From assembly GCF_010091925.1 (NCBI RefSeq), contig NZ_WVID01000042.1:1-44239 (forward strand): a DNA stretch of 44,239 nucleotides. The letters are read 5' to 3'. Under the pieces are notes generated by a model. It did not search any database, was not told the DNA's origin, and saw nothing but the letters and a program-made list of their open reading frames with translations. A program made the translations under genes and the position numbers. Positions 12,959 through 30,014 of the stretch are shown here, piece by piece (positions within the stretch are counted from its first letter, which is position 1; the number at the start of each line of letters is the position of its first letter). The DNA comes from Nostoc sp. B(2019). Lineage in GTDB: Bacteria; Cyanobacteriota; Cyanobacteriia; Cyanobacteriales; Nostocaceae.

Positions 12959-13696
12959 CTAACTACTATAATTTTGGCGTTTAACGAGTTTTGGCTTAGG
13001 AATTGGTTTAGGTATTGGGGTAGTATTTTCAGGAATTTTATAATTAGCAACAGCTTCAGCGATCACCTGCACTTGCGTTTCTGTTAAACATTCAGGACAG
13101 TTCACCATCGTTTGCAGCAGTGCGGGTACACCTTGGAACACTTGTACAGAACAATTGTTAACTCCTAGCCATTTAGCTATAGGAAACACCACTGGAGCAT
13201 AAACGAAACTTTCAGGAAGATTTGGAACTACAGAAGTTATCCATCGGCTAAACATTTTTTGATGGTAAGCACTCTGAGAAGTAGGACTATCAGACATTGC
13301 CACCCAATTACTGCCTTCTCGACGTTTCCATTTGTCGTTGTATGCACTAAATGAACCTTTCCACGTTTTGATTTCCAATAAAAAAACACCTTTTAACCCG
13401 ATAATCAAGTGGTCTATTTCTGTTAAACCGCCTGAGTTATTAGTGGTAATTAAGGCATTGTTAAACATTACCCAAGTGTCTGGGAAGCATTGCAAGATTG
13501 CCGATATGCCCCACTCTCCCATACTGCCTTTAAATTGGTTTTTGGATTGCTTAAATTCATAAATGAATGAAGCTAACCCACCTAATGTACTGTTACCTAA
13601 AGCTTGGTGAATTTCTTGGTGTTTAGCAGATTTTTTAGCATTTATCTTTTCTCGGAATACTGCTTTTAACGTTGATGACTGTTGTAAAGTTTTCAT
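12959..13696 (-). CDS. NERD-domain nuclease-related protein
   Basis: This 245-residue protein has a NERD domain at about 55-165: KGSMGEWGISAIL, then LTEIDHLIIGLKGVFLLEIK and TWKGSF. These supply the PD-(D/E)xK-like acidic and lysine residues (Glu61, Asp95, Glu108, Lys110). NERD domains occur in DNA-processing and stress proteins. The C-terminus is proline/lysine-rich (IPKPIPKPKLVKRQ). It lies 124 bp beyond the DUF262 gene on the same strand, which suggests but does not prove a link. Confidence 0.82.
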   Translation of the reverse strand: MKTLQQSSTLKAVFREKINAKKSAKHQEIHQALGNSTLGGLASFIYEFKQSKNQFKGSMGEWGISAILQCFPDTWVMFNNALITTNNSGGLTEIDHLIIGLKGVFLLEIKTWKGSFSAYNDKWKRREGSNWVAMSDSPTSQSAYHQKMFSRWITSVVPNLPESFVYAPVVFPIAKWLGVNNCSVQVFQGVPALLQTMVNCPECLTETQVQVIAEAVANYKIPENTTPIPKPIPKPKLVKRQNYSS

Positions 13697-13820
13697 AGTA
13701 GATTGATAATTTTACAGCTTCTCTTAATTAATGAATTCGTTGGATGATTTTATGATTTGTAACATTCGATTGAAAAATTAGAATTAGGTTGATCACTAAA
13801 GAGTTTTATTGCCATGAGGT

Positions 13821-16139
13821 TTAAACCCAATCTAAGTCTTCTAGAGCTTGAACAACCTGTGGGCGTAACTGCCATTGCCATTCTCGTTGAGTATGATTTT
13901 CGCTATCTCTGATAGTTTTCCAATATCCAGAAGCTAACATCCATAACCAGAATGGTTTACCGTTATTTTCATGTTCAGGCGGTAAGTAGTTTAAATGATT
14001 TGCAATCAATTCTCCGATTCTGGCGTATTGCAAATTTGCACCATTATAGTTTTCATATCTAGCCGCCTGCGCTAATCCTGTTGCAGTGATAGTTTGTGTG
14101 GGTGCATGGTAGTGAGCTTTGAGCATCAACCTATGGCAATCAGTTATTTGATTACTAATAGCTAGAAAAGCTTGCTTGTAATCATTTACTTGCGGAAACT
14201 CAATAGCTAGAACTTCCTCAATGACATAGTTTTTGAACTTGTCTATACCAGTAAAATAGCGATAACCAAGACGATTAGCAGTTTCTTTAATTTCTTTATC
14301 CGCATCAATTAGTAAAGCAATTGGTTGGCTTTTACCTTCTTGTAAGCCGTTGGGCCAGGCTAAATCTAGTACGGCATTGACTGTTCCTGTGGAATCAATT
14401 AGTTCATACATCAATTGACCCTTTGGCAACCCTTGTTCTTTCACCCAGGCATTACACTCTTCTAAAACTCTTTCGTCAGCTAGTGAGAAAACAGCCGTAG
14501 AGCTTTCAATAACATTTTGCACTGAAATGGAATCTGTCGCTTTTGGTTCTGGAATATCGCCAGTGAGTAAGCTATTCAAAAACTTATTGGCTGCTTGAGC
14601 TAAAAGTTCACGACGTGCGGCTAAGAAATCGTGATAGTTTTCAATTTGCCACAAACTACGCTCCATCGGTATCCAATGCGTTGCTATCGCTCCAGGTTGC
14701 GTTTGCTCGAATGCCTCAAAATACTCCGAAGGATGACGGTTTGAGACTTTGAGGTTGGTTTGTTGGGTGAGAAAGGTAAGATTAGCGATCGCATTAACTT
14801 CGGATTTTGGGTATCCAGCTTTGGAAAGTAACGATTTCGGAAAAATATGATGGACTTGCAAATAGCAATGTTTACCGAGAAGATGTTTGGATAGTTCGAT
14901 GCCACTATCCCAATCTTGTGCTTGATGCACGCGAGTGAGCATATAAACTAATGGGTAAAATCTTGCTCCCATACCCCAACCTTGAAAGTCAATAGCTTTG
15001 ATTTCCAAGTCTCCGCGATTTTGTCGTAAGTTGGCGATGAGTTGGTCTAGCGGATTATCTTCAGATTCCAATACGTGTAAATCTTGGGTTAGAACGCTCT
15101 CAGTTGAACCTGCGTAACGTCCCCACAGTAAAGTATGCACGTACCAGTACAATAACTTGTCGCGTTCTTTGTGATCTCTAAGATGTCCGCCACGACCAAC
15201 AAGGTAACGCACCATGACAGGAAAGGCGTAAATACCACCGAGTACCCGATTGTGGTCGAGTCCTAAACGCCCAGAAATCAGGTTGAGCAGGGTATCAATA
15301 GCTTTTTCTGCCTTACATAGCCCATTTTGGAAGGTTGCAGTATCAACATCTTTAAGCGCAGAGAACATTGCTTCTCCACTGATCACTGCATTAATGCACC
15401 GAAGTAACCACTCTAAACGAAAGTCAAAACCTGCTTTATTCCATTTTGCCAGACGTGCTTTGAGTTCACTGCGGGCATCCGGCCATTGAGCGCAAATTTT
15501 TGCTAGTGCTAAATCACCTTTAGATAGTTTGGTTCCTCCGCTATTGACAGTGTTAAATATTTCAACAACAACATCAACTGTTTTATCTTCTCCTGCAACT
15601 TCTTCAATATGTAAATTGATATTTTTGATACCTTCTAGTTTATTTAAAGCATTAATGTAAGTAGTCAAATTCAGACTAAGCTCTGGAATTTTTAGCAATC
15701 GCTGAATGAAAATTCCTACACCTTGCTGCATCAATTCAGTTACATTAACCCACAAGGGGTTGTCCTTCATTTTGACAGGAGCGTAAAATTCAAATATTTC
15801 ATCTTCCAAGTTGAAATACAAACCAGTGAAAGCTTGCACATTGCCATCAAAAAACTGAGGTGGTTTACCCCGCACAATTCCATAGAAGGAGGTGATGCGC
15901 TGTTGCCCATCTAGCAGCAGTTTAACTGTACCTGCGGAAAGCTTACCATCGCCACGCTTATACTCAACTGCTTGTTCAGTTTTGGTTTCCCATACTAATA
16001 AGCTACCAATAGGATGCTTACGATACAGCGAATTCATCAACCCTCGAACTTGGTCACGATTCCACACATAACCCCGTTGGAACTCTGGTAAAGCAATACT
16101 GCCCATGTCGATTTGGTCGAGGATAGTTGTAATATTCAT
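13821..16139 (-). CDS. GmrSD-like DUF262/HNH restriction protein with extra C-terminal domains
   Basis: GmrSD proteins are NTP-dependent type IV nucleases that cut modified (for example glucosylated) phage DNA. The DUF262 (GmrS) motifs are LPEFQRGYVW (about 17-26) and LLLDGQQRITS (75-85). The DUF1524-like HNH (GmrD) is VHHIFPKSLL (429-438) with NLTFLTQQTNLKVSNRHPSE. Two further regions follow: LDLAWPNGLQEGKSQPIALL, and a C-terminal block (TGLAQAARYENYNGANLQYA ... LRPQVVQALEDLDWV) that I associate with HNH-type restriction proteins. The ATG at 16139 fits the domain start. At about 772 residues it is long for the family. It is transcribed with the exonuclease genes just upstream. Confidence 0.88.
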   Translation of the reverse strand: MNITTILDQIDMGSIALPEFQRGYVWNRDQVRGLMNSLYRKHPIGSLLVWETKTEQAVEYKRGDGKLSAGTVKLLLDGQQRITSFYGIVRGKPPQFFDGNVQAFTGLYFNLEDEIFEFYAPVKMKDNPLWVNVTELMQQGVGIFIQRLLKIPELSLNLTTYINALNKLEGIKNINLHIEEVAGEDKTVDVVVEIFNTVNSGGTKLSKGDLALAKICAQWPDARSELKARLAKWNKAGFDFRLEWLLRCINAVISGEAMFSALKDVDTATFQNGLCKAEKAIDTLLNLISGRLGLDHNRVLGGIYAFPVMVRYLVGRGGHLRDHKERDKLLYWYVHTLLWGRYAGSTESVLTQDLHVLESEDNPLDQLIANLRQNRGDLEIKAIDFQGWGMGARFYPLVYMLTRVHQAQDWDSGIELSKHLLGKHCYLQVHHIFPKSLLSKAGYPKSEVNAIANLTFLTQQTNLKVSNRHPSEYFEAFEQTQPGAIATHWIPMERSLWQIENYHDFLAARRELLAQAANKFLNSLLTGDIPEPKATDSISVQNVIESSTAVFSLADERVLEECNAWVKEQGLPKGQLMYELIDSTGTVNAVLDLAWPNGLQEGKSQPIALLIDADKEIKETANRLGYRYFTGIDKFKNYVIEEVLAIEFPQVNDYKQAFLAISNQITDCHRLMLKAHYHAPTQTITATGLAQAARYENYNGANLQYARIGELIANHLNYLPPEHENNGKPFWLWMLASGYWKTIRDSENHTQREWQWQLRPQVVQALEDLDWV

Positions 16140-16170
16140 AAATTGTTTTGTATAGAAAAACTTACAATGT

Positions 16171-16932
16171 TCATGCTGCTTGTGCAAAAGATTTTGCAAA
16201 ACCAAACATACTAAATAGCCAGTGATGCCACTCTTGATAAGTGATAAATACCTTTAAAGCTGACTCCAAATCAACATCTAAATCTCTATTTTGAATGTCG
16301 ATAATTGTTTGATAAGTCAAATCTAAGTAAATCCTGTCTTGTTTGCTAAACAAAATAAAACTACCATTAGAAGAATTATTCAGTTGAGCTACTCGTTCTT
16401 TACCTACCTTCCCTCTAACTTGTGTTATGCGCTCATCACGAAATAAACCAAAGCGGTCATGAGGATGCAAACTTACTAGCTCATTGAAATTGGCAATTCG
16501 GCTGGTAAAAGATGTGGTGCTTGGATCGAGTTGGAGAAACCCCATCACATAATTTTTATTACCAGTCTCAACCACAATATGTTCTGGCAAAACTCGCTTT
16601 CCCAAACGATATTGAGTTAGTCTCATTGGCTTTATATGGTTAAAAGCTTCAGCAATAGTTTTTAGTTTACCCATGTCATCATAATCAGAAATGATAGGAA
16701 GATTACTATACTGCTGCTCAAGTTCAGCCTTCTTTCGAGTTAAATACTCAATAATATTATCTGAAGTATGTAGTTGAAGCTTGGGAGGCTCAGGGAGAAA
16801 TTGCTGATATAACTTTGCTAAATCTACCAACCTTGGTTCCTGTATTGCTTGAACCAAATAAAGAAATCCTTCGGCTAATTTTTGCTTGACGATAAAGCTG
16901 GTAAGTAAACTGGGCATCATATCGAGCAGCAT
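16171..16932 (-). CDS. C-terminal portion of a frameshifted exonuclease gene
   Basis: This frame continues the protein started at 17329 after a +1 shift. Joined at the A5 run (16879-16883 on the plus strand), the reading becomes DAQFTYQLYRQAK followed by LAEGFLYLVQAIQEPRLVDL. The rest is about 220 residues with a helical stretch (YLTRKKAELEQQYSN) and a beta-rich middle (KRVLPEHIVVETGNKNYVMG) that I do not recognise. A separate start at ATG 16932 is possible, but a 143-bp overlap with the upstream frame would be unusual. Loss or gain of one base, or a sequencing error, explains the layout best. It ends 31 bp before the DUF262 gene starts. Confidence 0.6.
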   Translation of the reverse strand: MLLDMMPSLLTSFIVKQKLAEGFLYLVQAIQEPRLVDLAKLYQQFLPEPPKLQLHTSDNIIEYLTRKKAELEQQYSNLPIISDYDDMGKLKTIAEAFNHIKPMRLTQYRLGKRVLPEHIVVETGNKNYVMGFLQLDPSTTSFTSRIANFNELVSLHPHDRFGLFRDERITQVRGKVGKERVAQLNNSSNGSFILFSKQDRIYLDLTYQTIIDIQNRDLDVDLESALKVFITYQEWHHWLFSMFGFAKSFAQAA

Positions 16933-17329
16933 GAGCCATATCTCGAATAAAGTAGCGGTTATTTACCTGCAAATTAAAATGCTTACTCAGGTGTTCTAGG
17001 GAATGGCTTTCTAGCTGTGACCAAACACTTTTTGCTTTTTCCCAAGTACACTCGAATTCTAGTTTGGGGCAAAAAAGACCAACTCGGCGAAAACTGGACT
17101 GAAGTATCTCAATATCATGCAAGGCATAGTGGCAGACTATTTTCTTGCCTTGGACAAGCGCCACAAACTCTGTAAGCAGAGTTTTGAGACTTTTAAGGTT
17201 AGGCAGATTCTTGTTGTGATTGGGATAATCACTGGAAAACCCTTCATAGATCAACCGTCCCTGACTATCCACAATCGCCAATTCACTTAATTCTGGTTTC
17301 CCCTCAGTATCTAAAACTACAAAGTCCAT
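16790..17329 (-). CDS. DEDDh 3'-5' exonuclease domain, frameshifted at its end
   Basis: The first 150 residues form a DnaQ-like exonuclease: VVLDTEG (Asp and Glu of motif I), VCHYALHDIEIL (motif II Asp) and HAARYDAQFTY (the His...Asp of motif III, DEDDh class). Such enzymes remove nucleotides from 3' ends of DNA or RNA. After RQAK the frame gives a basic, non-domain tail (ISRRISLFGSSNTGTKVGRF) and stops at 16790, while the natural continuation lies one frame over. All four catalytic positions are before the break, so the nuclease domain could still fold. Together the two parts would encode about 385 residues. Confidence 0.75.
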   Translation of the reverse strand: MDFVVLDTEGKPELSELAIVDSQGRLIYEGFSSDYPNHNKNLPNLKSLKTLLTEFVALVQGKKIVCHYALHDIEILQSSFRRVGLFCPKLEFECTWEKAKSVWSQLESHSLEHLSKHFNLQVNNRYFIRDMAHAARYDAQFTYQLYRQAKISRRISLFGSSNTGTKVGRFSKVISAISP

Positions 17330-17456
17330 ATAACCCTGACTGCGAGTAAGCTATAGTAAAATTAACACAGGTATTTTAAAATAGGTATAATTTGTATCAC
17401 CCAAATAAGTAAGATAAGAAAATATCAGTAGATAATCTGACAAGTATCAATGTCTT

Positions 17457-17669
17457 TCAATGGTTGCAGTCAGTATTGATGCGATGAAAATTTTCCACAG
17501 TGATCGCATATATCCCCGCCTTATCTCCAGATTTCCAAATCAGTACCCCATCACTAGGAACCATATCTTTGGCATAGCGTGTTGCCAGCCACGGCATCTG
17601 CTCAAAGTCGCGGATGCCGTCTATGATGCGGTAGTACTTGGGGCTGCCTTGGAATAAGGAATAGGTCAT
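17457..17669 (-). pseudogene. EVE-domain fragment
   Basis: About 70 codons encode the first part of an EVE (PUA-like) domain: GSPKYYRIIDGIRDFEQM, then WLATRYAKDMVPSDGVLIWK, then SGDKAGIYAI. EVE domains read modified bases and often accompany modification-dependent restriction. The fold normally continues for another 70-80 residues, but here the frame drifts (TVENFHRINTDCNH) and stops. I chose the ATG at 17669 (MTYSLFQG). A longer upstream frame overlaps the RNase III gene and looks non-coding. Probably a truncated relic. Confidence 0.65.
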
Positions 17670-17715
17670 TGTTGTTTGGTAGATTTCCTTGCTTGGTTTG
17701 TGTGGGGCGATCGCT

Positions 17716-18363
17716 TTAATCATCATCATCACCAGGGGCCCATCCATAGTCAGGAAAATCTCCCAAGCCAATCATGTCTAGGTAATCTCTGGTACTAAGA
17801 CTCATATCCTCAAAATTCTCCTCATCGTCTTCTTCATCATTGAGAATTTCGTCTAAAGCATCTGCTAGAAAGCGCTTAATTAGCCAAGAGCTAACTTGAG
17901 AAAAATCACGCTTAAATCCTAAATAAACTGCACCAAGTACAGCCTCAAACATTTCTGCAAAAAGTCTCTCTTGCTCATTTAAAGGTTTTCCTTTTAGACT
18001 TTTTCCCAAGAGGCAGAACTCTGGTAAATTTAACTTAATAGCAAATTCTAACAATTGGGCTTTATCTACAAGTGATTGTTTACCCTGAGTAAGTTCGCCT
18101 TGTGTAGATTCAGGAAATCTTTCATATAAGTAGTCAGTAACAATAGCACCAAAAATTGCATCTCCTAAATGAGCTAGCCGTTTGTAAGCTTTCTCTTGTA
18201 AATCTTTTGTCTGCCTATCTACATTTGATTCATAGATAAATGATGGGTGTCTTAAAGCAATTACTAGCGCTTCTGTTGCCTGAAATTCACTTATACCAAT
18301 TCCTTTCAAAAAAGCTTGAATTTGCTGTTGCCGTTGCTGTTCTGGGTTATACAATTGTGTCAT
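17716..18363 (-). CDS. RNase III-domain protein without dsRBD
   Basis: This 215-residue protein has an RNase III fold (about residues 20-170): KRLAHLGDAIFGAIVTDYLY, then GELTQGKQSLVDKAQLLEFA, then LFAEMFEAVLGAVYLG. RNase III cuts double-stranded RNA. Compared with the usual ERLEFLGDAV signature, the first two Glu are Lys and Ala, and the ADAFEA Asp is Glu, while GDA and FEA remain, so activity may be altered. There is no dsRNA-binding domain; a strongly acidic tail (DEEDDEENFEDMS ... PGDDDD) follows instead. It lies 72 bp after the SNF2 helicase gene, same strand, and is probably part of that operon. It is unlikely to be the housekeeping enzyme. Confidence 0.8.
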   Translation of the reverse strand: MTQLYNPEQQRQQQIQAFLKGIGISEFQATEALVIALRHPSFIYESNVDRQTKDLQEKAYKRLAHLGDAIFGAIVTDYLYERFPESTQGELTQGKQSLVDKAQLLEFAIKLNLPEFCLLGKSLKGKPLNEQERLFAEMFEAVLGAVYLGFKRDFSQVSSWLIKRFLADALDEILNDEEDDEENFEDMSLSTRDYLDMIGLGDFPDYGWAPGDDDD

Positions 18364-18435
18364 AATTTAATAATTAATATGATGATTTTTAGTTAATAAG
18401 TAGTAAAAACAAGAGAGTATGTCTACTGGAATCGC

Positions 18436-21400
18436 TTATGCCCTTAATAAAAGAGCAGCTAAAGAAACTTGTATACTGGTAGGTTTAATTCCTTCAAATG
18501 CAATTAGATTGAGTTTGTCTGTATCTTGCACTAACTGAATCACAAAGTTTTCGTCATCCAAAATTGCTTTATTCCCATCGGTATACTCTTTTAAAAGTTT
18601 TTGTACAGGCTTCATCTCCTTCCAAGTGTTTAATTTTTTTAACGTACTCTTAACATCTGCTCGATCTAAACCTGCTGGAAAGTGATCAAGCATACTCACC
18701 CGACGTTGAATTTTAGTAATGCGCTCAGAGGTAACGCTAATGTTTTCTAGGGTTTCTGGCTGTTTTAATTCAGCAACCTGCTGCTGTTTTAAGCCCACCA
18801 GTTTGCTATATAAAGATTGAGCGCATGATAGTAAATATTTTGAGGAGAAAACATTTCCGGCTATTGGAGTTTTAAAGGCAGTAGCGATCGCCATACCATA
18901 ACCATCGTTTTCCCCAGTTTGGTCATTCCAGAACAAAGTCTGCTGTTTCTCTAAAATTGGTTCTCCATTTGGGCCAAAATATTGCACTGTCAACGCCACT
19001 AATCCAGTAGCTTCATCTTTTTCACCAGTGCGACGACCTACAGCAATTGAATTGGCTTGGTAATCTTCACCCAATTGTTTTAGTAATTTGCTTAGTTCTT
19101 CACCATGCAGAATCTCATTTTGGGTATAAAGGTCGCGGCTAGTTTCCTGTTTTTTATAGGCATCTTCTTGTAAATTACCCTGCTCTATCTTTCTAGCTTT
19201 GACTAAGCTCTGAACAAAGTCGATGTATCCTGGCAGAATTTCATCATCAAATAGGGTATCACCATAAATAGAAGCCCCCAATGTATTGACACTAGAAATG
19301 GTAGGGATGTTGGGGTTAGGTTCAATACTAGCGATGTGTCCATCATTTTGAGCTAAATCTCCCACTAATTTTTTATGCAAATTTGACAGGCGAGAAGCTT
19401 GCCGTAACAGTTGGCTTTCACTGTTGGCATAATAAACATAAATGTTCTTAGCTTTATGTTGCTTGGGGCGGTCAATTCTGCCAATGCGCTGCTCCAAAAT
19501 CATAGGATTCCAAGGCAGGTCAATATTAATCAAATAATCAGCATCTTGTAGATTTTGACCCACTGATAAAGTTTCTGAACCAATTAGTACAGCGATTTCT
19601 TCCTCTGGCTTTGGGCGTTCTGTAGGATTTTTACAAGTAGCGTTTGGGGCAAACAGTCTAAATATTTCTTGGCGATTTAAAGTAACTGGGCTACGTTTTG
19701 GTTGCAGTACGTGGCCAGGACTTACTTTTTGGGGTTTGTCTGAATTATTTGTGTAATACAGCTTTGTAGAACCAATCAGCATCCCAATACCTTTAGATGC
19801 GATCGCACTGTCACGAGCCATGTAACGGTAGTAATCAATTACGGTGTCACTGAAAGTTGAAATTAACAGCACCTTATGACCTTGACTTACCAGTTCTGCT
19901 ACTTTTTGAGTAACTTGCTTGCGTTTGTGGTCAACCAGAAATTCATCTATTAACAGGTTTTGAATCTGTTCTAGCTGATGCAAATCACCTTCACAATCAG
20001 CCAACATTCGCTCATAAACTTTTTGGGCATTGTTAGGATTATCTCGTAAGTTATCTGTGGCAATATCAATAGACCGCCTTAACTGTTGACGCTTTTGCTG
20101 TTGTTCTGCCTCGTTTTCGTCCTCGTCTTCTTCCCCATCTTCATAATCCTCATCCCAGCCTTCAGGGTTGTAATCATCTAAGAAACTTTCTGGTTTATCC
20201 TTCTTGTCGGATTCAAAATTGTAGTGAATTAGCAAAAATTCTTTCAGTCCATCAGCATCAGGAGAAACTGATTCTAGGCGTTGTTGCATCTGCCGAATGC
20301 GATCGCCAAAGTTTTTGATGGTTCGATTCAGGGCATACATACTCGATTCAGCCCGTTGTAGAAAGAATCGGCGTTGGTTTCCTAATAGACTTCGCTGTTC
20401 GACGCTACCTGTTAAATAACGAATTGGATCAGCAAAGGGAATAAAAAGACTGGTTTCAAATTGAGTGAAAATCTGCTCAAGTGCTTGTTCTGTACTAATT
20501 TCAAAATGCACAGGTAGCCATTCTGCTATCCGTTTGGCATACAAATTTAAATCTGGGGTGGCTTCTCGCAGCATTTGGCGGGTGCGCTGAAGAAACAGTT
20601 CGCGGTAGGTACGGCGAAATAGTTCAGTATTATCTGTAAAATTTTCTACCCCAATTTCTCGATTTTGAAACCATTGAGCGACTTCTGCGGGGAACTTTAA
20701 ATCATTGAATCCTTGAGGACGACTGATAAAGGGCGAGAGAATGTTATAAATATCTTCCCGGCGATTGTTCCAAGGTGTAGCCGTCAACAGTAGAAAGTAA
20801 CGTTGCCGAGCAGACTTGCGATCGCTTTCTTGAATTGATGCACAGGTTTTATGAATGCGGTTTTTATAATTGCGAATGCCTTCGTGGGCTTCATCGATGA
20901 TAACTAAGTCAGGGCCACCGTAGCGATTGAAGTCTGCAAGAAAATTACTACCTTTGCGGCTCATCAGGTTTTTATTGTAAAGCTCGTAATCGTTAGATTT
21001 AAAGCCCAATTCTGCCATTTCTCGCTCCCAGTTGGGGTAGAGTTTCTTAGCAGCGATAATCGCAATCTTAGCTTGACCGTTCTGCTGGCGATACAACCAC
21101 GAGACAGTAGCCGCTAGCCGAGTTTTCCCCAATCCTACAGCATCAGCGCAGACAGCAACACCAAAATCTTGCATGACTCTTAAGCAGTGTTGCGCTCCAG
21201 ATTTTTGATGCTCAAACAAGATACCTTGATTTAACAGTTCATCGAGCAAATCACTACGTTCAACCCGGAACTGACGGGGGCGCTGTTGTGCCAACCAGTA
21301 AAGAAAATCATTTGGTGTGCCGTGATTTCCTGCCAAAATTATTTCTACAGCTTGTTTAAACCCTTCAATTTCACTGAAATCTGGAATTTCTAGGGATTGG

Positions 21401-22704
21401 CTGACGGCTGGAGGATTTTCGGGTGAGTTGTGATAAACACCGTCGCCTGTTGTAACTTTAAAATCGCTTAACTTTGTAGGCGGATGTTCTGGGTCTACCT
21501 CAACTTGACCAATAATCCGTTCCGAATCTTGGCTGTCAATGGTAATTTTAACTAATTCATCATTTACAACCTCAATGCTTTCTATTTTGTCTAAATTTTG
21601 ACCTGTGATTTCAACTTGGGTGGTTTCTCCAGGGGCAAATTCATCAGGATTGATAGATTCAATAACTGGTTCTTTTAACTTGGCACGGCGATCGCGTTCG
21701 GCTAGTACCTGCTGTAAAAACTCTTGGGTTAAGTCAAAGGTAATGTCATCTCGCTGCCACTCAACATCAAACTGACCAATACTTTCAAATATGGCTTCTG
21801 CATCTAAACGAGAATCCCAAGAGTAGAGAAAGGTTACACTCTCAGCATTTTTAGAATGTGCTGCACGGGTGAAATTATCTGAGCCTTCATGCAGAATGTG
21901 GTTTTCTAACTGGTCGCTCAAGATGCCAGTTTTTTTGTGATAGATACCCCGTCCTGACTCCATTTTGACAAGTTTAATTTGCAAAAAATTCAGACGAACT
22001 AACTCAGCCAAAATTTCTGTATCACTAAAGGCACTATCTTCTAAACCTTTAAGAAATTCAGTCAGCGTAGAATGAGCAAATTGGGCGCGGTAGTTAGAGT
22101 CTTGTAATTTCTCCAGTTCTTGGACATCAGCCTGCTTGGTAAATCCTTGCCAGTCCATCAATAGGCGAATTTGACCTTCAGTTTGCACAATTGAAGCAAG
22201 AGGTTCTTCATATAGTTTCAGCACACCACTATCAAAGTAAGCTGTAGAACGGCGATAAATTTGGGTGCGTTCTAGGGCAGAGCCGATGAAGACATTGTAT
22301 TTATCTAGCTGATCAGGCAAATTGAATCTACGAAGACGACCTTTGATTTCTAAAAAGCTGCCTGCAAGTAAAGCTTTTTCTTTGCTTACACTTTCTTTAT
22401 GAAGGAATTTTTCAATAACATTTAAATTACTAATTCGCAGCAGAGAGGTACTAGGTACATTTCCATCTTTGAGGGGTGTATATTCAAAAACCTTAGCGCT
22501 TTTTGGGTCAATTCGTAGTATTCTGTAAGTCGCTTGTTTACCACCAATACCTAAAAACTTCACAACTGTTTTTAACAGCCTGTCAGCATCGCGGTGCTTG
22601 AAGACGAGCCAGTATTGATTGTCAACACCTTTGATAGGATTACCTTGGAGTAGGTAGTAGGGGCGTTGTTTGCGAATTAGGTCTTGGATAAAGTTTTCAA
22701 GCAT
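18436..22704 (-). CDS. PLD - TIG-like - SNF2 helicase (restriction motor/nuclease)
   Basis: A 1422-residue multidomain protein. Residues about 135-300 form a PLD-type nuclease region, with HKK at 256-258 (HxK) and GSDNFTRAAHSKNAE (274-288). Residues 346-422 read as an IPT/TIG-like beta domain (PVIESINPDEFAPGETTQVEITGQNL). An SF2/SNF2 motor follows: DAVGLGKT (Walker A, 521-528), IIDEAH (602-607), LTATPWN (640-646) and the C-terminal SETLSVGQNLQDADYLINI with EQRIGRIDRP (1043-1080). A very acidic insert (DEDYEDGEEDEDENEAEQQ) sits near 851-869. It starts 10 bp after the methylase stop, so the two are surely co-expressed. It resembles the motor of DISARM- or ISP-type restriction, with PLD as the likely nuclease. 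Confidence 0.88.
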   Translation of the reverse strand: MLENFIQDLIRKQRPYYLLQGNPIKGVDNQYWLVFKHRDADRLLKTVVKFLGIGGKQATYRILRIDPKSAKVFEYTPLKDGNVPSTSLLRISNLNVIEKFLHKESVSKEKALLAGSFLEIKGRLRRFNLPDQLDKYNVFIGSALERTQIYRRSTAYFDSGVLKLYEEPLASIVQTEGQIRLLMDWQGFTKQADVQELEKLQDSNYRAQFAHSTLTEFLKGLEDSAFSDTEILAELVRLNFLQIKLVKMESGRGIYHKKTGILSDQLENHILHEGSDNFTRAAHSKNAESVTFLYSWDSRLDAEAIFESIGQFDVEWQRDDITFDLTQEFLQQVLAERDRRAKLKEPVIESINPDEFAPGETTQVEITGQNLDKIESIEVVNDELVKITIDSQDSERIIGQVEVDPEHPPTKLSDFKVTTGDGVYHNSPENPPAVSQSLEIPDFSEIEGFKQAVEIILAGNHGTPNDFLYWLAQQRPRQFRVERSDLLDELLNQGILFEHQKSGAQHCLRVMQDFGVAVCADAVGLGKTRLAATVSWLYRQQNGQAKIAIIAAKKLYPNWEREMAELGFKSNDYELYNKNLMSRKGSNFLADFNRYGGPDLVIIDEAHEGIRNYKNRIHKTCASIQESDRKSARQRYFLLLTATPWNNRREDIYNILSPFISRPQGFNDLKFPAEVAQWFQNREIGVENFTDNTELFRRTYRELFLQRTRQMLREATPDLNLYAKRIAEWLPVHFEISTEQALEQIFTQFETSLFIPFADPIRYLTGSVEQRSLLGNQRRFFLQRAESSMYALNRTIKNFGDRIRQMQQRLESVSPDADGLKEFLLIHYNFESDKKDKPESFLDDYNPEGWDEDYEDGEEDEDENEAEQQQKRQQLRRSIDIATDNLRDNPNNAQKVYERMLADCEGDLHQLEQIQNLLIDEFLVDHKRKQVTQKVAELVSQGHKVLLISTFSDTVIDYYRYMARDSAIASKGIGMLIGSTKLYYTNNSDKPQKVSPGHVLQPKRSPVTLNRQEIFRLFAPNATCKNPTERPKPEEEIAVLIGSETLSVGQNLQDADYLINIDLPWNPMILEQRIGRIDRPKQHKAKNIYVYYANSESQLLRQASRLSNLHKKLVGDLAQNDGHIASIEPNPNIPTISSVNTLGASIYGDTLFDDEILPGYIDFVQSLVKARKIEQGNLQEDAYKKQETSRDLYTQNEILHGEELSKLLKQLGEDYQANSIAVGRRTGEKDEATGLVALTVQYFGPNGEPILEKQQTLFWNDQTGENDGYGMAIATAFKTPIAGNVFSSKYLLSCAQSLYSKLVGLKQQQVAELKQPETLENISVTSERITKIQRRVSMLDHFPAGLDRADVKSTLKKLNTWKEMKPVQKLLKEYTDGNKAILDDENFVIQLVQDTDKLNLIAFEGIKPTSIQVSLAALLLRA

Positions 22705-22714
22705 GGTTAATAAC

Positions 22715-25700
22715 TCACTGAATAGGCCAAGCTGGAATTACTGCGTCAATCTTTGCCATTAGCTCAATGGTTTCTTTGAGGGCTACAACAATACGCTGAT
22801 AATGTTGGATATCGTCAGGGGTGAGAGTGCGTCCTTTACGGTTTTTGAGCCATTTTTGGCAGACTTGATAACCACCTACATAAAAGTTCCACACCCGTTC
22901 TGGTATGCCAGTAAATTTATCTCCTTTTTTGTTAATGATGACAGTACCATTAATATATTTTGGATGTCCTACATCGACTATTTGATTACCACCATTTTCT
23001 TGAAACTGTGTGTTTAGGTTGTTTAATTTGAGTGATTTCATTAAGTGTAGTGCTACCAGCTCTTCTCCATATTGTGCAAGTTGACAAAATAGATCATTAT
23101 TACTGGTGAGGGGAACACGGGGAAAGTCGATTTTGAGAAATTCGGCATAACGCGTGCGGTAGGTGGGTGAGTGGAAGATGGCGTAGATGTAATAGAAGAT
23201 GGTCTCTGGGGTAGGGGTGTAGCCGAGTTTTGAGGTGATGTTTTTGAGGAATTTAGGAGACAGATTTGTTTGGTGCTGCTCTTTTAAAACAGTTTGTTGT
23301 GGATTATTAAGATCGGGATAAAGATAAAGTGGAAAACAAGCGTTGTTTCCTCTGCGGTACAGATTGTAATCCTCCATCATATTTCCGCAGAATATTAAAT
23401 TCCATTCATCGTCTCCCACTGCTTGACCCTGACGACCGACGAAAATCGCCAAGTTGGGATAAAGCATATGTTTTATTAGTTCATAACGAGGCATACTGAT
23501 AAAGCCTCGTGTTTTCCCTGTGTAATAGGTATATCTAAAGTCAAAAGGTCGATATAAAATCTGTTTTACATATTTTTCTGATATAGGAAAACGCTTGATA
23601 TCCTGTTGAGCGAGTAAAACTTTCCAGTCTCGTGTATCATTCCCTAAATCAAATTCTTTTCTTGCGACCTCTGGCGGTAATGATACAAATCGAGTAACTA
23701 CATCTAGCAATCGTTCTGAAGAGAAGTTTATAGTTAGGTCATCACGAGAAGTTGCAATTCCAACACTATTTAAATTCATAATACTTGCTAATTCCCAAAA
23801 TTGTTGATACTCATTAAGCAAGTTATAATTTTGAGGAACTAAAAGGTAAAATGGCTTTTGTGGACTTAATTGTGCCCATTGAGTAGATTTAACATCATTT
23901 ATACTGAGCTTGGTATACTTCTCTTCCCGGCAACCATACAGATGGCAATGAGATATTAATTGATTAGTTCCTTTAATGCCAAATGTAATATTAACACCTT
24001 GCTGAATGTCAAATACATTGTCATCAGGTAAACCGTCAGGTTGTTTTTCTCTTTTCTTATTATTACCGTGTAAATCATAGACATAAAGTGTATCAAAACT
24101 TTTAATTAATTGTTGACGCATACCTCTAAATGTAAGGTTATCTAAAAAACCATGATTATTAATAAAAGCTAAAATTCCTTGGCCAGTTTTATCTATTTTC
24201 CATTGAGCGAAGCGAATAAACTTTACATAATCATCTTGTAAACCTTTGGGATTGCGTTCGCCTAATGGTTGACCATCAACTTGATAATAATCACGAACTA
24301 AAGAAGTTATCCATTCACCCGTATTTTCTGATTCATAAGAATATGGAGGATTACCAATTACTAACATCACGGGTTGGTCACGCTTAATTGCAACAGCACG
24401 TTCTGATTCTTCTGAAATATACTCTCCTAGTAAAACTTCTGATTTCCGTTCTGGCGCATCTAAAGTATTTGCTAGTATAACTTCTAACCGTTTACCACTG
24501 TCAAATTTATAACCAGTCTCTTCTAAAAATAAACTTATTTTTAAGTGAGCGATCGCATAGGGAGCCATTAATAACTCAAAACCATAAATTCGAGTTATTA
24601 GATGCTTTTCTACATACTGTGACCAGGATATGTCACCCATTTTAGATTTAAATAACTCTCTATATTCAACATTATGAAAACGTTCATGAATTAAGCGAAA
24701 TATATACAGTAAAAAACTTGCAGTTCCACAAGCTGGGTCAAGAATTTCTACCTCTGGGTCAGCCAACCCCAACGGCTTATTAAACTTCTCCTTCACCAAA
24801 ATATCTACAGACCGCACCATATAAGAAACCACAGGCTCCGGTGTATAATAAACACCTCGGCGCTCACGCATTTTAGGCTTGTAGGCTGTTAAAAAATCTT
24901 CATAAAACCGAATAACAATATCTTCCCGGTTCATCTTCAACTGGAAGTCCGAGAGAATCGCATCCATCTTGGCGGCGCGGAGAATGCCAAAAATATCTGC
25001 GATCGCACCTATCAACTCATCCCCCAATTCTTCAGGCTCACGCTCTGACACATCTTTAAACAGCTTGCGGAGAAATGGGTTAGTTTCTGGTAATTGTTGC
25101 CAAGCAGATTCACGGTCAAAATGCGTTTCCTTCTCGCGTCCCTCGCGCTTATCCTTCACGTAGCTGAATACCTTTGCTGTAAACAGTGCATAAGCAATGG
25201 TTTGGGCGTAGATATCGGCAAAACTGTAATCTTTCTCATTATCTGAAGTCAGTTGTAATGTGGGCAGTAACTCCCGTTGAAAACTCTTCAATAGGTTGTG
25301 TAAATACCCATCAGCTTTTTCTTTTTTATAGACCGAAGGAATTGCCTGCTCAATCCGGCGGGCTGCTTCAGCCAACAACTGCGCCAGTTCCTTCGCCGTT
25401 TTAATCGGTTCATAGAAAACCCACTCCACTAAGGGAACCGAACTTAGCCCCTTAGCAGCAATCGGCAGTTCGCCTTGTTTTAAGCGGTTTAACCGTGCTA
25501 TTAGTTGCGGTTCATTCCAATCAAAAGTCTGGATTTGCCGTTGGCGCAGTCCACCTTCACTTGGCAGCACTAACGGCACTCGACCTGTAGCTTCTTTAGT
25601 AGGTAGAAGTAAATACATTACAGGTTGCTGTTCAGCAACTCGGTTTGTGTAATGCCCGTAAATTTCTTGTTGCTGTTCTTTAGAGGTCAAAAATCTTTTA

Positions 25701-25927
25701 ATTTCCTGGTCTGTAATTCCTGATAGTTCCTCATAGAAGCCAACAGCAATTGGGCAAGTTTCCTCAGCTTCTAACTCATCGACACCAGGACGCAAGTACC
25801 AAAAACGAGAACCTTGAGGATCATGCTCTTTCACCGGATATCCTAACAGCTGCCGCAGTGCCTCTACACGATAATTTAAATCTGTACCAGTCATTACAGC
25901 CTGTAACTGCTCTTTGGTGAAAGTCAT
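22715..25927 (-). CDS. N6-adenine DNA methyltransferase with type ISP-like target-recognition tail
   Basis: A 1070-residue gamma-type adenine methylase. A helical N-terminal region (1-350) precedes the MTase core: GVYYTPEPVVSYMV (358-371), motif I EILDPACGTASFLLYIF (394-410) and motif IV VIGNPPYS (523-530). The C-terminal half reads like the specificity domain of type ISP enzymes (LlaGI/LlaBIII kind), ending WNFYVGGYQVCQKWLKNRKG, then DDIQHYQRIVVALKETIELM. In classical ISP proteins nuclease, helicase, MTase and TRD are one chain; here the motor is a separate gene 10 bp downstream. A good AAGGA site precedes the ATG. Expected role: mark host DNA and set target specificity for the partner helicase. 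Confidence 0.92.
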   Translation of the reverse strand: MTFTKEQLQAVMTGTDLNYRVEALRQLLGYPVKEHDPQGSRFWYLRPGVDELEAEETCPIAVGFYEELSGITDQEIKRFLTSKEQQQEIYGHYTNRVAEQQPVMYLLLPTKEATGRVPLVLPSEGGLRQRQIQTFDWNEPQLIARLNRLKQGELPIAAKGLSSVPLVEWVFYEPIKTAKELAQLLAEAARRIEQAIPSVYKKEKADGYLHNLLKSFQRELLPTLQLTSDNEKDYSFADIYAQTIAYALFTAKVFSYVKDKREGREKETHFDRESAWQQLPETNPFLRKLFKDVSEREPEELGDELIGAIADIFGILRAAKMDAILSDFQLKMNREDIVIRFYEDFLTAYKPKMRERRGVYYTPEPVVSYMVRSVDILVKEKFNKPLGLADPEVEILDPACGTASFLLYIFRLIHERFHNVEYRELFKSKMGDISWSQYVEKHLITRIYGFELLMAPYAIAHLKISLFLEETGYKFDSGKRLEVILANTLDAPERKSEVLLGEYISEESERAVAIKRDQPVMLVIGNPPYSYESENTGEWITSLVRDYYQVDGQPLGERNPKGLQDDYVKFIRFAQWKIDKTGQGILAFINNHGFLDNLTFRGMRQQLIKSFDTLYVYDLHGNNKKREKQPDGLPDDNVFDIQQGVNITFGIKGTNQLISHCHLYGCREEKYTKLSINDVKSTQWAQLSPQKPFYLLVPQNYNLLNEYQQFWELASIMNLNSVGIATSRDDLTINFSSERLLDVVTRFVSLPPEVARKEFDLGNDTRDWKVLLAQQDIKRFPISEKYVKQILYRPFDFRYTYYTGKTRGFISMPRYELIKHMLYPNLAIFVGRQGQAVGDDEWNLIFCGNMMEDYNLYRRGNNACFPLYLYPDLNNPQQTVLKEQHQTNLSPKFLKNITSKLGYTPTPETIFYYIYAIFHSPTYRTRYAEFLKIDFPRVPLTSNNDLFCQLAQYGEELVALHLMKSLKLNNLNTQFQENGGNQIVDVGHPKYINGTVIINKKGDKFTGIPERVWNFYVGGYQVCQKWLKNRKGRTLTPDDIQHYQRIVVALKETIELMAKIDAVIPAWPIQ

Positions 25928-26056
25928 TTGTTTTCCTTACTAAGTTCAAAACAGCACGGTAAAACTGCGATCACTCTTTAAAAAAGTGCAATCGCTATAT
26001 CAAATTCGACCAAGTACTGCTCTCAAGAAGTGAGGTAGTCTACTTTTTCCTCAGAA

Positions 26057-26305
26057 CTAATTTGACTGATACTTTGCTAACAGTTTCTGCCCTTGATCAC
26101 CCATCTCTTGTAGAAGTTTTTCAATCCTCTGCATAGCCATTGGCGATAAATTAGAACGTTTATTTTCCCAACGATTAACTGTGGAATAAGTAACACCCAA
26201 ATGTGTTGCGAACTGTTCTTGGGTTAAACCCGTTACAGTGCGAAGTTCATGGATGAGCTGTCCCAGTTTTGGTTGTTCGATTACCAAAGGCTTTTTGATA
26301 GTCAT
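26057..26305 (-). CDS. XRE-family regulator of the restriction module
   Basis: This 82-residue protein is mostly one Cro/cI-type HTH: LGQLIHELRTVTGLTQEQFA, then THLGVTYSTVNRWENKRSNL. Small XRE proteins commonly control restriction-modification operons. It lies 129 bp upstream of the methylase gene on the same strand. A perfect 8-bp inverted repeat (26328-26351) sits 22 bp before its ATG and is a likely autoregulatory operator. The same kind of site precedes the dGTPase gene, so this protein may control both. The regulator call is sure; the regulon is inference. Confidence 0.88.
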   Translation of the reverse strand: MTIKKPLVIEQPKLGQLIHELRTVTGLTQEQFATHLGVTYSTVNRWENKRSNLSPMAMQRIEKLLQEMGDQGQKLLAKYQSN

Positions 26306-26326
26306 TAGCTCAAACCCACTACTTGA

Positions 26327-26400
26327 GTAGCAAATAATGTGTAATTTGCTATATCGTAGTTAGCCTCATACTGGATTGTAACCCGCTAATATACTGTTAT
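26327..26400 (-). promoter_or_regulatory. Promoter/operator block of the XRE gene
   Basis: TAGCAAAT (26328-26335) and ATTTGCTA (26344-26351) form a perfect inverted repeat with an 8-nt spacer, 22 bp upstream of the XRE ATG. A stretch at 26372-26400 matches 24 of 29 positions of 28499-28527, upstream of the dGTPase gene, at nearly the same distance from a related palindrome. The repeat overlaps the place where a -10 box would lie, so binding there would repress. Confidence 0.6.
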
Positions 26401-26473
26401 TTATTTACTGTAGCTTTAATATCTTTATGTAATAAACGCAACTTGTACTTAAGTATCCTTGGTGAGAACTGGT

Positions 26474-26941
26474 TTAATATGCAATTGCCCCCAAAGTGCC
26501 ACTGACGGCCCGTAAATAATCAGATGGAGATAGCAGAAGCAGCATTCCTCGTATTCCACCAGAAACAGTGATCTGCTCAAATAGGATTGCTGTTTCATCA
26601 AGGTAAACAGGATAGTCTTTTTTGCTAGCTAAAGCTGTCACACCGCCACGGATGTATCCTGTTAGTGGCTGGACTTCCTTGAGAGCAACTGTCTCAACCT
26701 TGCGGTTTCCTGAAATCCGCGCCAAGGCTTTTAAATCTAAGTGAGCATTTCCAGGTATAACAGCAAAGCAGATACCTGTTGTGTCACCTCTGACTACTAA
26801 AGTTTTAAAAACTTGCTCTGGGGGAAGACCAACTTTGTGTGCTGTACTCTCAGCAGCCAAATCATCCGGATCTACTTCATAGCTCAGGATTTGGTAGGGA
26901 ATACCTAGTTTATCAAGTAGTCGAGCAGCATTAGTTTTCAT
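26474..26941 (-). CDS. ybaK: YbaK/EbsC-family Cys-tRNA(Pro) deacylase
   Basis: This 155-residue protein matches YbaK, which clears Cys mischarged onto tRNA(Pro). Visible family features are NAARLLDKLGIPYQILSYEV, the substrate-pocket region VGLPPEQVFKTLVVRGD, the AVIPGNAHLDLKALARISG block and GYIRGGVTALASKKDYPVYL with the conserved glycine-rich loop. The length is normal. I chose the ATG at 26941; a TTG lies one codon upstream. It sits between the dGTPase and the restriction module but has a housekeeping-like role, so it may be a bystander. Confidence 0.9.
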   Translation of the reverse strand: MKTNAARLLDKLGIPYQILSYEVDPDDLAAESTAHKVGLPPEQVFKTLVVRGDTTGICFAVIPGNAHLDLKALARISGNRKVETVALKEVQPLTGYIRGGVTALASKKDYPVYLDETAILFEQITVSGGIRGMLLLLSPSDYLRAVSGTLGAIAY

Positions 26942-27113
26942 CAACCTTTCGTTATTTTAAGCTTTAATATCTTAGTTTCTCAAGCTTGTAAAAATATATC
27001 CTTGCTTTATAGAAATTCTCTATTCAATAGCAACAGGATAATAAAACTTATTTTTAATTACTTGCAAACCTAAATTTTCTACCTAGATAAAATAGGTAGC
27101 TCCTACAATGAAA

Positions 27114-28445
27114 TCATCCCAAGGAAATTCCGCTAAATTTTTGAAATAGTTTAGTAGCATAGGAGTCAGTCATACCAGATATATAGTCTGTAATTTTCAG
27201 AATTTTTTCGTAGCTATCATCCTCCAAATTTAGATGATATTCTTTCGGAAGCATTTGATAGACTAATTTGAACTTATTGTTATTATTGAAGATTGTGTTA
27301 GCAAACTCAGTAAATAACTTGGCTAAAACTTCGTATCCAGCAACTTGGATACTAACTACATCCTGATGCTGAAAAACAGTATCACTAGTTTGTTTTCCAA
27401 TTTTTTTTAGATGCTCTGCATAATCACTTAAAGATAATAAACCTTCTTCAAATTCTCCCGAAAGAATTTTTACTTCATGATCTAAAAAAATTTTAGTTGC
27501 TTCTCTTATAAGTTTATCAATAGCTTTAGCACGCAATCGTTTAACTTTTTCATCGTTACTATCATCATCTTTTTGAATATCAATATCTGCAATCTTATTA
27601 AGCAAGTCTTTAGCTTGCTCAAATGATATATAACCCATACGATGTCCATCTTCTACATCAACAATTGAGTAACAAATGTCATCTGCTGCTTCAACCAAAA
27701 AAGCAAGTGGATGTCTACACCACCATGCTGCATTATCATGACGGCGAATTAACCCAACTGTATTTGCTACTTCAGTAAATAAATCTTTTTCTGCCTGAAA
27801 AAAGCCATGTTTTTTAGGAATTCTACTTGTGGAATTTTTTAAGATAGATTCTGGTATTGAAGATTCTCTAGGATACTTTGTAAAAGCAGCTAAAGTTGGG
27901 CAAGTGAGTTGCATCCCCCCTCTTTGAGGAAGCATTTCAAGCTTAGTTAAAATCCTAAAGCCCTGTGCATTACCTTCAAATAAATCAAAGTCAGCTTTTT
28001 GAAACTTGGTAAGTAGTTCCTCTTTTATTTGATTAACAGAACTATACCAAGATTGAAATGCTGTACGAATAGCATCTTCTCCAGAATGACCAAAGGGAGG
28101 ATTACCAATATCATGAGCTAGACAAGCAGCAGACACAATCTCACCGAAGTCTGAAGGACTGTAACCATATTTATCAAGCTTGTGTCTTTTTATAATTTCA
28201 GCGCCTACAATCCTACCAAGAGAGCGGCCAACACAAGAAACTTCAAGACTATGAATTAGACGAGTACGAATATAGTCATTTGTGGGTAAGGAAAAAACCT
28301 GTGTTTTATCTTTGAGGCGGCGGAAAGGGGAAGAAAAGACCAAGCGATCATAGTCTCTTAAAAACGGGGTACGACCATGTTGAATATCTTCTTGTTCTGT
28401 CCTACCAAGCCTTTGAGGTGTCAGGAGCTTTTTCCAATCCATCAT
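27114..28445 (-). CDS. dgt: dGTP triphosphohydrolase (HD domain)
   Basis: dGTPases split dGTP into deoxyguanosine and triphosphate; some protect bacteria by starving phage of dNTPs. The 443-residue protein starts WKKLLTPQRLGRTEQEDIQH and has the FSSPFRRLKDKTQVF signature. The HD metal ligands are His65 (RTRLIHSLEVS), His111-Asp112 in AACLAHDIGNPPFGHSGEDA, and the later AADDICYSIVDVEDG aspartate. The length and order match Dgt. The promoter region (28456-28527) is a paralogue of that of the XRE gene of the restriction module, suggesting shared control. Confidence 0.92.
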   Translation of the reverse strand: MMDWKKLLTPQRLGRTEQEDIQHGRTPFLRDYDRLVFSSPFRRLKDKTQVFSLPTNDYIRTRLIHSLEVSCVGRSLGRIVGAEIIKRHKLDKYGYSPSDFGEIVSAACLAHDIGNPPFGHSGEDAIRTAFQSWYSSVNQIKEELLTKFQKADFDLFEGNAQGFRILTKLEMLPQRGGMQLTCPTLAAFTKYPRESSIPESILKNSTSRIPKKHGFFQAEKDLFTEVANTVGLIRRHDNAAWWCRHPLAFLVEAADDICYSIVDVEDGHRMGYISFEQAKDLLNKIADIDIQKDDDSNDEKVKRLRAKAIDKLIREATKIFLDHEVKILSGEFEEGLLSLSDYAEHLKKIGKQTSDTVFQHQDVVSIQVAGYEVLAKLFTEFANTIFNNNNKFKLVYQMLPKEYHLNLEDDSYEKILKITDYISGMTDSYATKLFQKFSGISLG

Positions 28446-28455
28446 AGTGATTTCC

Positions 28456-28527
28456 GTAGCAATAATATATATTTTGCTACATTGTACTCAACCAAAGCTA
28501 GATTGTAACCTGGTAATAAACTGTTTT
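28456..28527 (-). promoter_or_regulatory. Promoter/operator block of the dGTPase gene, paralogous to the XRE block
   Basis: GTAGCAA (28456-28462) and TTGCTAC (28474-28480) are perfect 7-bp arms with an 11-nt AT-rich spacer, 10 bp before the ATG. In gene direction the centre reads ATATATATTATTG, a likely extended -10. Positions 28499-28527 share 24 of 29 bases with 26372-26400. Together with the similar spacing (43 versus 45 bp from palindrome start) this implies common ancestry and probably a common regulator. Confidence 0.6.
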
Positions 28528-28608
28528 TTGCTTCCAAAATAAGATTTCTACGTAATTTTTGCACTTCCTACTTATCGGATGTAAAATCGCCACAATTGTT
28601 TCAAAGCC

Positions 28609-29637
28609 TTAACCAATCCCATACTCCGACTCCAGAAGCGTCAACAATTTCTCTTCCACAGCAGTAAGATAAGCCCGATTCAGCTTTCCCAATGACTGCA
28701 ACAGATTTTTAACTGTCTCCTCCAGTGAGTTGGAATATACTCGACTAATGCGATCGCAAATCACCTGCATCTGCTGACACTCCTGGGGCAGGTAGTTGAA
28801 TGATTTTAGGTGCTTCACCCCAATGGTGTACTCGCCATCCCAGGCTCTCACGCTGCAACTAAAGTCATTCACTGCGCTGACAATTGCCCAACACCCACCC
28901 TTACCCCTGAGTTCTGGGTTGTCTTTGACAAGGATTTGGCAGACTTCACTAAGTTGGTAGGTGTTCGGTACTTTGGTTCTCTCCATTATTTTTTGCACAA
29001 CATCAGTGACGATCCTGGCACTGGGAACTTTACCACCAGCCTCGTGTACTGCCCGTTGCCAAACTTTAACCTGCTGCTGGGGTTCTAGCTTTGCCAGAGG
29101 GCGCACTTGTCCTTCGTTAGTCGGCAGGATTCGTGAGAGGTGAGGTCGAGTTTCATCCACTTCCCCATTTTGGGAACAATTTGTTCCCGTTTTATCCACT
29201 TCCTCGTTTTGGGAACAATTTGTTCCCGTTTCATCCACTTCCTCATTTTGGGAACAATTTGTTCCCGTCACTATGTTGTCAAATACTACAGAACCAGCTA
29301 TTAGATAATTGACTCGGCGATGGGTGTATCCAAATCTATCACGACAATACTCCTCAAATGTGCGATGAGTGGATCTGTATAACCTGCGATCGCGCAACTG
29401 AGCCAATGCCTTGCCTGCCTCAAAAAATGCACGTTCAACCTTGCGTTCTAAATGCAAGCGATCGCTTTGCTCTTGCTCGGTTAATTCTGGAACTTCAACA
29501 GCAGTAACGTCAATTGTTGCTAAGGCTGGGTTTTCTTGAGGGGAGATATCCTCTTCTGCAAGGTCATTTGGTAATGTGCTGTCATCAGATGCAGCAGGGG
29601 TGGCTTTTTTCCGTCTTCTAGAAGGTGGTTGGTTCAT
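28609..29637 (-). CDS. Plasmid DNA-binding-like protein with in-frame palindromic repeats
   Basis: A 342-residue protein of a type seen on Nostocales plasmids. Residues about 60-125 (LHLERKVERAFFEAGKALAQ, then FEEYCRDRFGYTHRRVNYLI) look like the helical DNA-binding region of plasmid segregation or control proteins. Residues 127-165 are three 13-residue repeats (TGTNCSQNEEVDE-like). The later part has LAKLEPQQQVKVWQRAVHEA and GGKVPSARIVTDVVQK, which resemble ParB-associated regions, and a helical C-terminus duplicated as a relic at 11281. A perfect AAAGGAGGT precedes the ATG. A partition or copy-control role is inference. Confidence 0.75.
   Translation of the reverse strand: MNQPPSRRRKKATPAASDDSTLPNDLAEEDISPQENPALATIDVTAVEVPELTEQEQSDRLHLERKVERAFFEAGKALAQLRDRRLYRSTHRTFEEYCRDRFGYTHRRVNYLIAGSVVFDNIVTGTNCSQNEEVDETGTNCSQNEEVDKTGTNCSQNGEVDETRPHLSRILPTNEGQVRPLAKLEPQQQVKVWQRAVHEAGGKVPSARIVTDVVQKIMERTKVPNTYQLSEVCQILVKDNPELRGKGGCWAIVSAVNDFSCSVRAWDGEYTIGVKHLKSFNYLPQECQQMQVICDRISRVYSNSLEETVKNLLQSLGKLNRAYLTAVEEKLLTLLESEYGIG
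29172..29266 (-). repeat. Three tandem 39-bp repeats, each with a perfect 17-nt palindrome
   Basis: GGGAACAATTTGTTCCC occurs at 29172-29188, 29211-29227 and 29250-29266, exactly 39 bp apart, inside the coding region of the gene at 28609. Each unit adds 13 residues, so the reading frame is kept. The palindrome arms are 8 bp with a single central base. Confidence 0.9.
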
Positions 29638-29783: not shown

Positions 29784-30014
29784 TCATAATTCAGCATCTT
29801 CTTCAGGCTCTACAGCTTCATAAAGGTCTTTTGGCTCACAATTTAGTAACTCACAAAGTTTTGCAACTCGAACGAACATTTTGACTCCATCACGGCTTTT
29901 TTCCCAGTTGCGAACCGTCGAGACATCAAGCCCCAGCGCCTCCGCTATCTGCCTTTGAGTCAAATTCTTTTCCTCTCTGAGTTTTGCAATCCTAGACACG
30001 TAAATTTCTCCCAT
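29784..30014 (-). CDS. XRE-family transcriptional regulator
   Basis: A 76-residue Cro/cI-type HTH protein (RIAKLREEKNLTQRQIAEAL, then GLDVSTVRNWEKSRDGVKMF) with a short acidic tail (EAVEPEEDAEL). It is divergent from the long plus-strand operon at 30166, and the gap between them holds a textbook promoter with an inverted repeat in its spacer, so it most likely represses that operon and perhaps itself. It belongs to the plasmid-backbone part and is distinct from the XRE protein at 26057. Confidence 0.88.
   Translation of the reverse strand: MGEIYVSRIAKLREEKNLTQRQIAEALGLDVSTVRNWEKSRDGVKMFVRVAKLCELLNCEPKDLYEAVEPEEDAEL

Follow-up and report, generated by a model that had tools for sequence, protein, structure and literature searches.

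What does it mean that a small regulator gene and a dNTP triphosphohydrolase gene, with a third gene between them, are preceded by nearly the same DNA? The window, by which we mean the whole stretch analysed, is one contig of 44,239 bases from a 7.43-Mb genome, and the named relatives of its dgt gene are Nostoc. An 82-aa XRE/HTH_3 regulator gene (26057–26305; Pfam HTH_3 9.3e-11, PF01381 at 42 bits against a curated cut-off of 23), which has Nostocaceae homologs with the same upstream element, lies on the minus strand with a type ISP restriction-modification gene behind it (22715–25927, minus strand; Type_ISP_C 4.6e-90, N6_Mtase 9.4e-14, PADLOC REase_MTase_IIG 7.1e-216). On the same strand are dgt, encoding a 443-aa dNTP triphosphohydrolase (27114–28445; TIGR01353 7.1e-116, NF002205 1.1e-133, PADLOC dGTPase 7.5e-77, PDB 3bg2 1.6e-99), and, between the XRE and dgt modules, a ybaK/Cys-tRNA(Pro) deacylase gene (26474–26944; TIGR00011 5.4e-53). 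An earlier note on this DNA saw here a promoter and operator shared beyond chance, through which the restriction module's regulator would also control dgt.

Read on the minus strand, the two upstreams have the same order: a block with the −35 box, a spacer, the −10 box and, immediately after it, a palindrome. Before the XRE gene these are the block at 26372–26400, containing TTACAA (26376–26381), a spacer of 17, the −10 box TACGAT (26353–26358) and the presumed XRE operator (A)TAGCAA-N12-TTGCTAC (26327–26352), whose arms score 13/14. Before dgt they are the block at 28499–28527 with TTACAA (28503–28508), a spacer of 16, the −10 box TACAAT (28481–28486) and GTAGCAA-N11-TTGCTAC (28456–28480), with arms of 14/14 and 10 bp left to the start codon. 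Both palindromes are where the earlier note had put them, and a recount of the blocks again gives 24 identical positions out of 29. That they are of the same kind is true of their arms, whereas their centres differ in length, with 12 bp in the XRE copy against 11 bp in that of dgt.

The sharing exceeds what chance would give, since the best 29-mer match between the two 150-bp upstreams has 25 identical positions and no pair exceeded 22 among 3000 pairs of dinucleotide-shuffled upstreams. Both blocks belong to the longest direct-repeat pair in 25900–28800, and a block pattern made from both copies, with up to three mismatches allowed, is found at exactly these two places in the 7.43-Mb genome, while the loose palindrome TAGCAA-N9..15-TTGCTA is by itself unspecific (16 places). 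A sequence-only model (R1) was made from 12 XRE upstreams, leaving out dgt, three near-duplicate XRE rows and seven rows without the block; it recovers the dgt site, including its block and −10 box, at 45.8 bits in the window (E 1.9e-13) and 45.9 bits in the genome (E 3.0e-11). In the own genome the XRE site itself scores 73.3 bits, followed by dgt, a GSDH-type gene on contig C11 (36.4) and an XRE paralog of 67% identity on contig C44 (28.1). Block and palindrome together are specific in this genome, because after these four sites the scores fall to 13.3 bits and less. Compared in this way, the two predicted promoter-operators are confirmed as homologous.

What the palindrome may do is best seen in the XRE family at large. 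It scores at least 11/14 in 31 of 80 distinct XRE upstreams, the window's included, a count in which only identical stretches were removed, so that close kin remain, and in which scoring against the window's own arms favours its near kin. Centre lengths among these 31 are 12 bp (28 upstreams) and 14 bp (three), never 11 bp, and eight of the 28 N12 palindromes precede genes whose XRE proteins share 95% or more identity with that of the window, its own among them. The other 49 upstreams, which include those of most distant homologs and of some homologs at 58–73% identity, score 8–10, and the palindrome is therefore not universal in the family. The block is visible by eye in 14 of 21 XRE upstreams (XRE identity 59–98%, and 47% in a single partial match); another five have the boxes and the N12 palindrome with the block absent. 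TANNAT stands directly before the palindrome throughout the 12 aligned XRE upstreams.

The operons headed by this family are varied, including ISP restriction-modification, ResIII/REase_III, UvrD/GajB-like, HerA-like and NERD operons, as well as a tubulin-like gene without a PADLOC match and, behind a shortened XRE frame, a gene for an NRPS-type protein. The family thus shows two of the traits of a self-regulating head of defence operons, namely a conserved palindrome over its own promoter and defence-type operons of unlike kinds behind it. The best reading of the palindrome is as the operator of the XRE family in a position typical of repressor sites, since by abutting the −10 box it should overlie the expected transcription start. 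Autorepression of the XRE gene, extending to the restriction gene behind it, seems likely.

The window's dgt is well within the dGTP triphosphohydrolases (TIGR01353 387.9 bits, curated cut-off 152.35) and below the cut-off of the antiphage_dGTPase model NF041026 (202.6 bits against 400). The PADLOC dGTPase model supports its placement in a defence-type family, and the family is patchy, with members in 46 of 243 genomes of the order at E ≤ 1e-20. The perfect 14/14 palindrome is present in all three genomes whose close dgt copy retains its 5′ region: that of the window, N. flagelliforme FACHB-838 (locus L103, the same site as L187 in G421) and Nostoc NMS2 (locus L104, the same site as L074 in G366). 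This conservation has little power, because the three upstreams are nearly identical and the genes 96–97% alike. In 26 of 31 dgt upstream rows, at 44–79% identity, the palindrome is absent and the sequences are different.

Could the dgt upstream be a local copy of that of the XRE gene? Window 27111–28677 (minus strand), the dgt cassette including its own promoter-operator, is 97% identical in FACHB-838, in a locus with no ybaK match in the ~600 bp available behind dgt, and window 26901–28677 is 96% identical in NMS2, where ybaK is present and no XRE gene adjoins. XRE and ybaK without dgt, on the other hand, occur together in four genomes (G402, G384, G415 and G412). These arrangements rule out local duplication: dgt and its promoter-operator move as a cassette, and so were not copied from the neighbouring XRE gene. 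Judged from these alignments, dgt is a gene that arrived with its own promoter-operator, and its adjacency to the XRE gene in the window is secondary. As for ybaK, it is found in other genomes alone, with XRE adjoining or with dgt adjoining, and this variety of flanks (XRE, dgt or neither) resembles an insertion hot spot; relatives of it are carried by several Nostoc plasmids. Among 72,556 plasmid records, 25 match window 26300–28700, none across more than 80% of it, and the matches listed are to relatives, of ybaK, XRE and dgt among others. In viral contigs, a search for the dgt promoter as an exact string gave no match.

The genomes with the cassette differ in the repressor that might go with it. 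NMS2 has, some 30 kb from dgt, a 62% XRE relative whose N12 palindrome scores 11/14. In FACHB-838, where the dgt operator is present, XRE relatives are of 43–49% only, with palindrome scores of 8–9; none of its XRE genes was found to have a palindrome that could be recognised, and the single R1 site in G421 is that of dgt. The dgt gene is broken in both, by a stop at codon 222 in FACHB-838 and by a frameshift near codon 22 in NMS2, where an internal start (429-aa frame) may still allow the protein to be produced, and a further copy, in G409, keeps residues 243–443 only. Among the four closest dgt copies found, the window's is then the sole whole one, and it has an XRE gene adjoining; this would agree with a gene that does harm once its repressor is missing, in a comparison of n=4 that is too small for a conclusion and in draft assemblies that may contain errors.

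The explanation to which we give about an even chance (roughly 0.5) is the following. The XRE protein would be a small repressor, probably a dimer, that binds GTAGCAA-N12-TTGCTAC starting right after its own −10 box and thereby keeps its operon repressed, in this case the ISP restriction-modification gene. The same promoter-operator would be a module of the XRE family, heading different Nostocaceae operons, and dgt would carry a homologous copy of it within a mobile cassette of ~1.6 kb. If its palindrome is still an operator, bound by the window's XRE protein or by another member of the family, dgt expression would remain low until the repressor is released. This explanation has an observed basis in that the two regions are homologous, the palindrome recurs ahead of XRE genes and the dgt cassette is mobile together with its promoter. 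Control of dgt by the window's own XRE protein is plausible because the arms and the position of the palindrome are kept, and doubtful because its centre is 11 bp and some genomes with it have no matching XRE gene. A change of 1 bp in the centre rotates the half-sites by ~35 degrees. Of the claims we started from, then, a homologous promoter-operator stands, while operator sharing in the strict sense is weakened by a centre length absent among the 31 good XRE palindromes, and control by the restriction regulator is weakened both by that centre and by the same dgt operator occurring without an adjoining XRE gene in FACHB-838 and NMS2. One regulon of the XRE and dgt genes is possible.

The main competitor to a working dgt operator is a mere capture of the promoter, in which a past fusion placed dgt behind the promoter of an XRE-headed operon, now used as a plain promoter, the palindrome being a leftover unread by any present repressor. 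We hold this to be a serious possibility, though one below even odds. XRE promoters do persist as scars. R1 matches at E ≤ 0.1, weak ones included, occur in 136 of 217 genomes of the family, and the places examined (30 loci and 40 more places, a subset of all matches) include 37 distinct sites, dgt apart, that lack an XRE frame and stand before genes of unrelated kinds. These encode, among others, a 237-aa protein, ShlB/FhaC, a GSDH protein and an AAA_15/OLD-like ATPase, as well as a putative kinase, a putative MscS, a putative phosphoribosyltransferase and a putative glycosyltransferase, named from their sequences. Remnants of the XRE gene (E ≤ 1e-3) were found at 16 of 44 promoter loci without an XRE frame, a set that includes duplicates of one site and dgt loci, against none of 44 reversed controls. 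The 237-aa gene is labelled behind the XRE promoter in ten genomes, in six of which a remnant lies in between. The XRE promoter recurs before unrelated Nostocaceae genes, often as the scar of a lost XRE gene. The 11-bp centre, instead of 12, and the dgt site without a matching XRE gene in FACHB-838 likewise agree with simple capture.

Against simple capture is the state of the palindrome itself. All 37 non-dgt sites have lost the full palindrome and score at most 11/14 (six at 11, seven at 10, the rest at 7–9), whereas dgt keeps 14/14; shuffles of these sites reached 11 or 12 in 23 of 1850 cases and never more, so that the sites are somewhat above shuffles, as expected of remnants. Since the promoter outlasts the operator after loss of the XRE gene, an intact palindrome before dgt is noteworthy. 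The search for remnants in the 44 loci found none at the dgt loci, which also speaks against capture, although only 10 bp separate the dgt palindrome from the start codon. The worry of the earlier note, that the palindrome might be a repeat scattered beside genes of no relation, holds for the promoter block and not for the intact palindrome. Two of these places deserve mention in their own right. At six Nostoc loci, what is left of the 5′ end of an XRE gene separates the promoter from the 237-aa gene, which looks like a rewired host gene; at one further locus (L203) an AAA_15/OLD-like gene, similar to AriA/GajA, has an XRE-type promoter, no XRE gene and a palindrome decayed to 8/14, and is possibly another free defence gene with such a promoter.

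A special sigma factor or an activator reading the conserved block could alone link the XRE gene and dgt, the palindromes being secondary. In its favour, conservation extends over ~50 bp, with AACAGTATATTA lying upstream of the −35 box, and is seen in front of eight or more unlike kinds of genes. This is nevertheless improbable in our view: model R2, built from just the block and run on the own genome and on 237 genomes drawn from the order, gives three credible sites in the former and matches in 11 of the latter (E ≤ 0.01), a low number for a sigma regulon, and many of the sites are accounted for by XRE remnants. Nor was likeness seen to GGGaAtacT, the J-box of SigJ as given in the part of its description available to us (PMC6495340). 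A general promoter class was rejected on the same two grounds, the few R2 sites and the lack of likeness to the J-box. The palindromes could also be RNA hairpins, acting as attenuators or stability elements in the 5′ leaders, to which the perfect 7-bp arms near the dgt start codon lend some appeal. With the palindrome abutting the −10 box, however, transcription would be expected to start inside the left arm, and a transcript beginning there would be unable to fold into the complete stem, making this reading very improbable.

Returning to a repressor that acts on its own operon and on dgt, several known systems invite comparison. Control (C) proteins of type II restriction-modification systems have the XRE fold and are defined by a clear match to a C-protein model and a pair of C-boxes. 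The window's XRE protein falls outside this class: its match to the PADLOC Control_protein model is weak (5.4e-5), a single palindrome abuts its −10 box with no second C-box seen, and its family also heads operons other than restriction-modification. What it has in common with C proteins, which are mentioned in PMC12255303, is being a small XRE-type protein beside a restriction-modification gene and, probably, acting on its own promoter. The nearest described case found is RptR, repressor of the type I restriction-modification/DarTG2 island of EPEC, in the gammaproteobacteria, which according to the same partial text is likewise a small repressor, encoded by the first gene of a defence operon, with palindromic sites at its promoter (over the −10 box) and also upstream of modules other than restriction-modification (PMC12255303). 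It differs in binding 6-bp TAGCTA palindromes rather than a split palindrome of 26 bp, and the accessible part of its description does not call it XRE (PMC12255303).

CapH, a regulator heading defence operons, is a weak sequence match (capH 1.5e-4). Bacterial anti-phage dGTPases were reportedly described by Tal and colleagues in 2022, and the window's dgt resembles them in belonging to the dgt family and in its patchy distribution, but, known here from its sequence alone, it satisfies NF002205 (PRK01096) and stays under the NF041026 cut-off. BrxR/CapW and CapK/CapS also put one type of regulator before different defence operons, with other folds (WYL and STAS), as far as their sources could be seen; in those parts no separate dGTPase target appears for them or for CapH (PMC9122601, PMC13373217).

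Taken to its widest extent, the explanation becomes a dispersed Nostocaceae defence regulon, where an XRE family both heads exchangeable defence operons and governs a free-moving dGTPase cassette with a plug-in promoter-operator, restriction and nucleotide depletion being released together and the dGTPase decaying without its repressor; this we consider tentative and rather unlikely as a whole. No description of a link between XRE and dgt was found in the literature searched. Only in a few cases is it known how defence genes are kept low until infection, and here a sequence-defined operator would mark a cyanobacterial XRE family heading restriction, helicase and other operons and be present on a free dGTPase gene as well. 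If the link is true, one regulator joins two defence strategies and its operator can be used to find more members. The promoter scars before ordinary genes, for their part, show how genes next to defence modules can be rewired as such modules turn over.

The surroundings of the locus contain other features. The stretch 12082–25927, on the minus strand, is a series of defence-like genes encoding the ISP restriction-modification protein, a 1422-aa helicase with PbeA, DpdE and DrmD matches, and RNase III-like, GmrSD-like, NERD and SNase proteins. Beyond dgt, at 29784–30014, is another small XRE-type gene, of 76 aa. Between it and dgt, a 342-aa reading frame (28609–29637) contains 3.1 tandem copies of a 39-bp unit at 29150–29268, each unit with the near-palindrome GGGAACAATTTGTTCCC.
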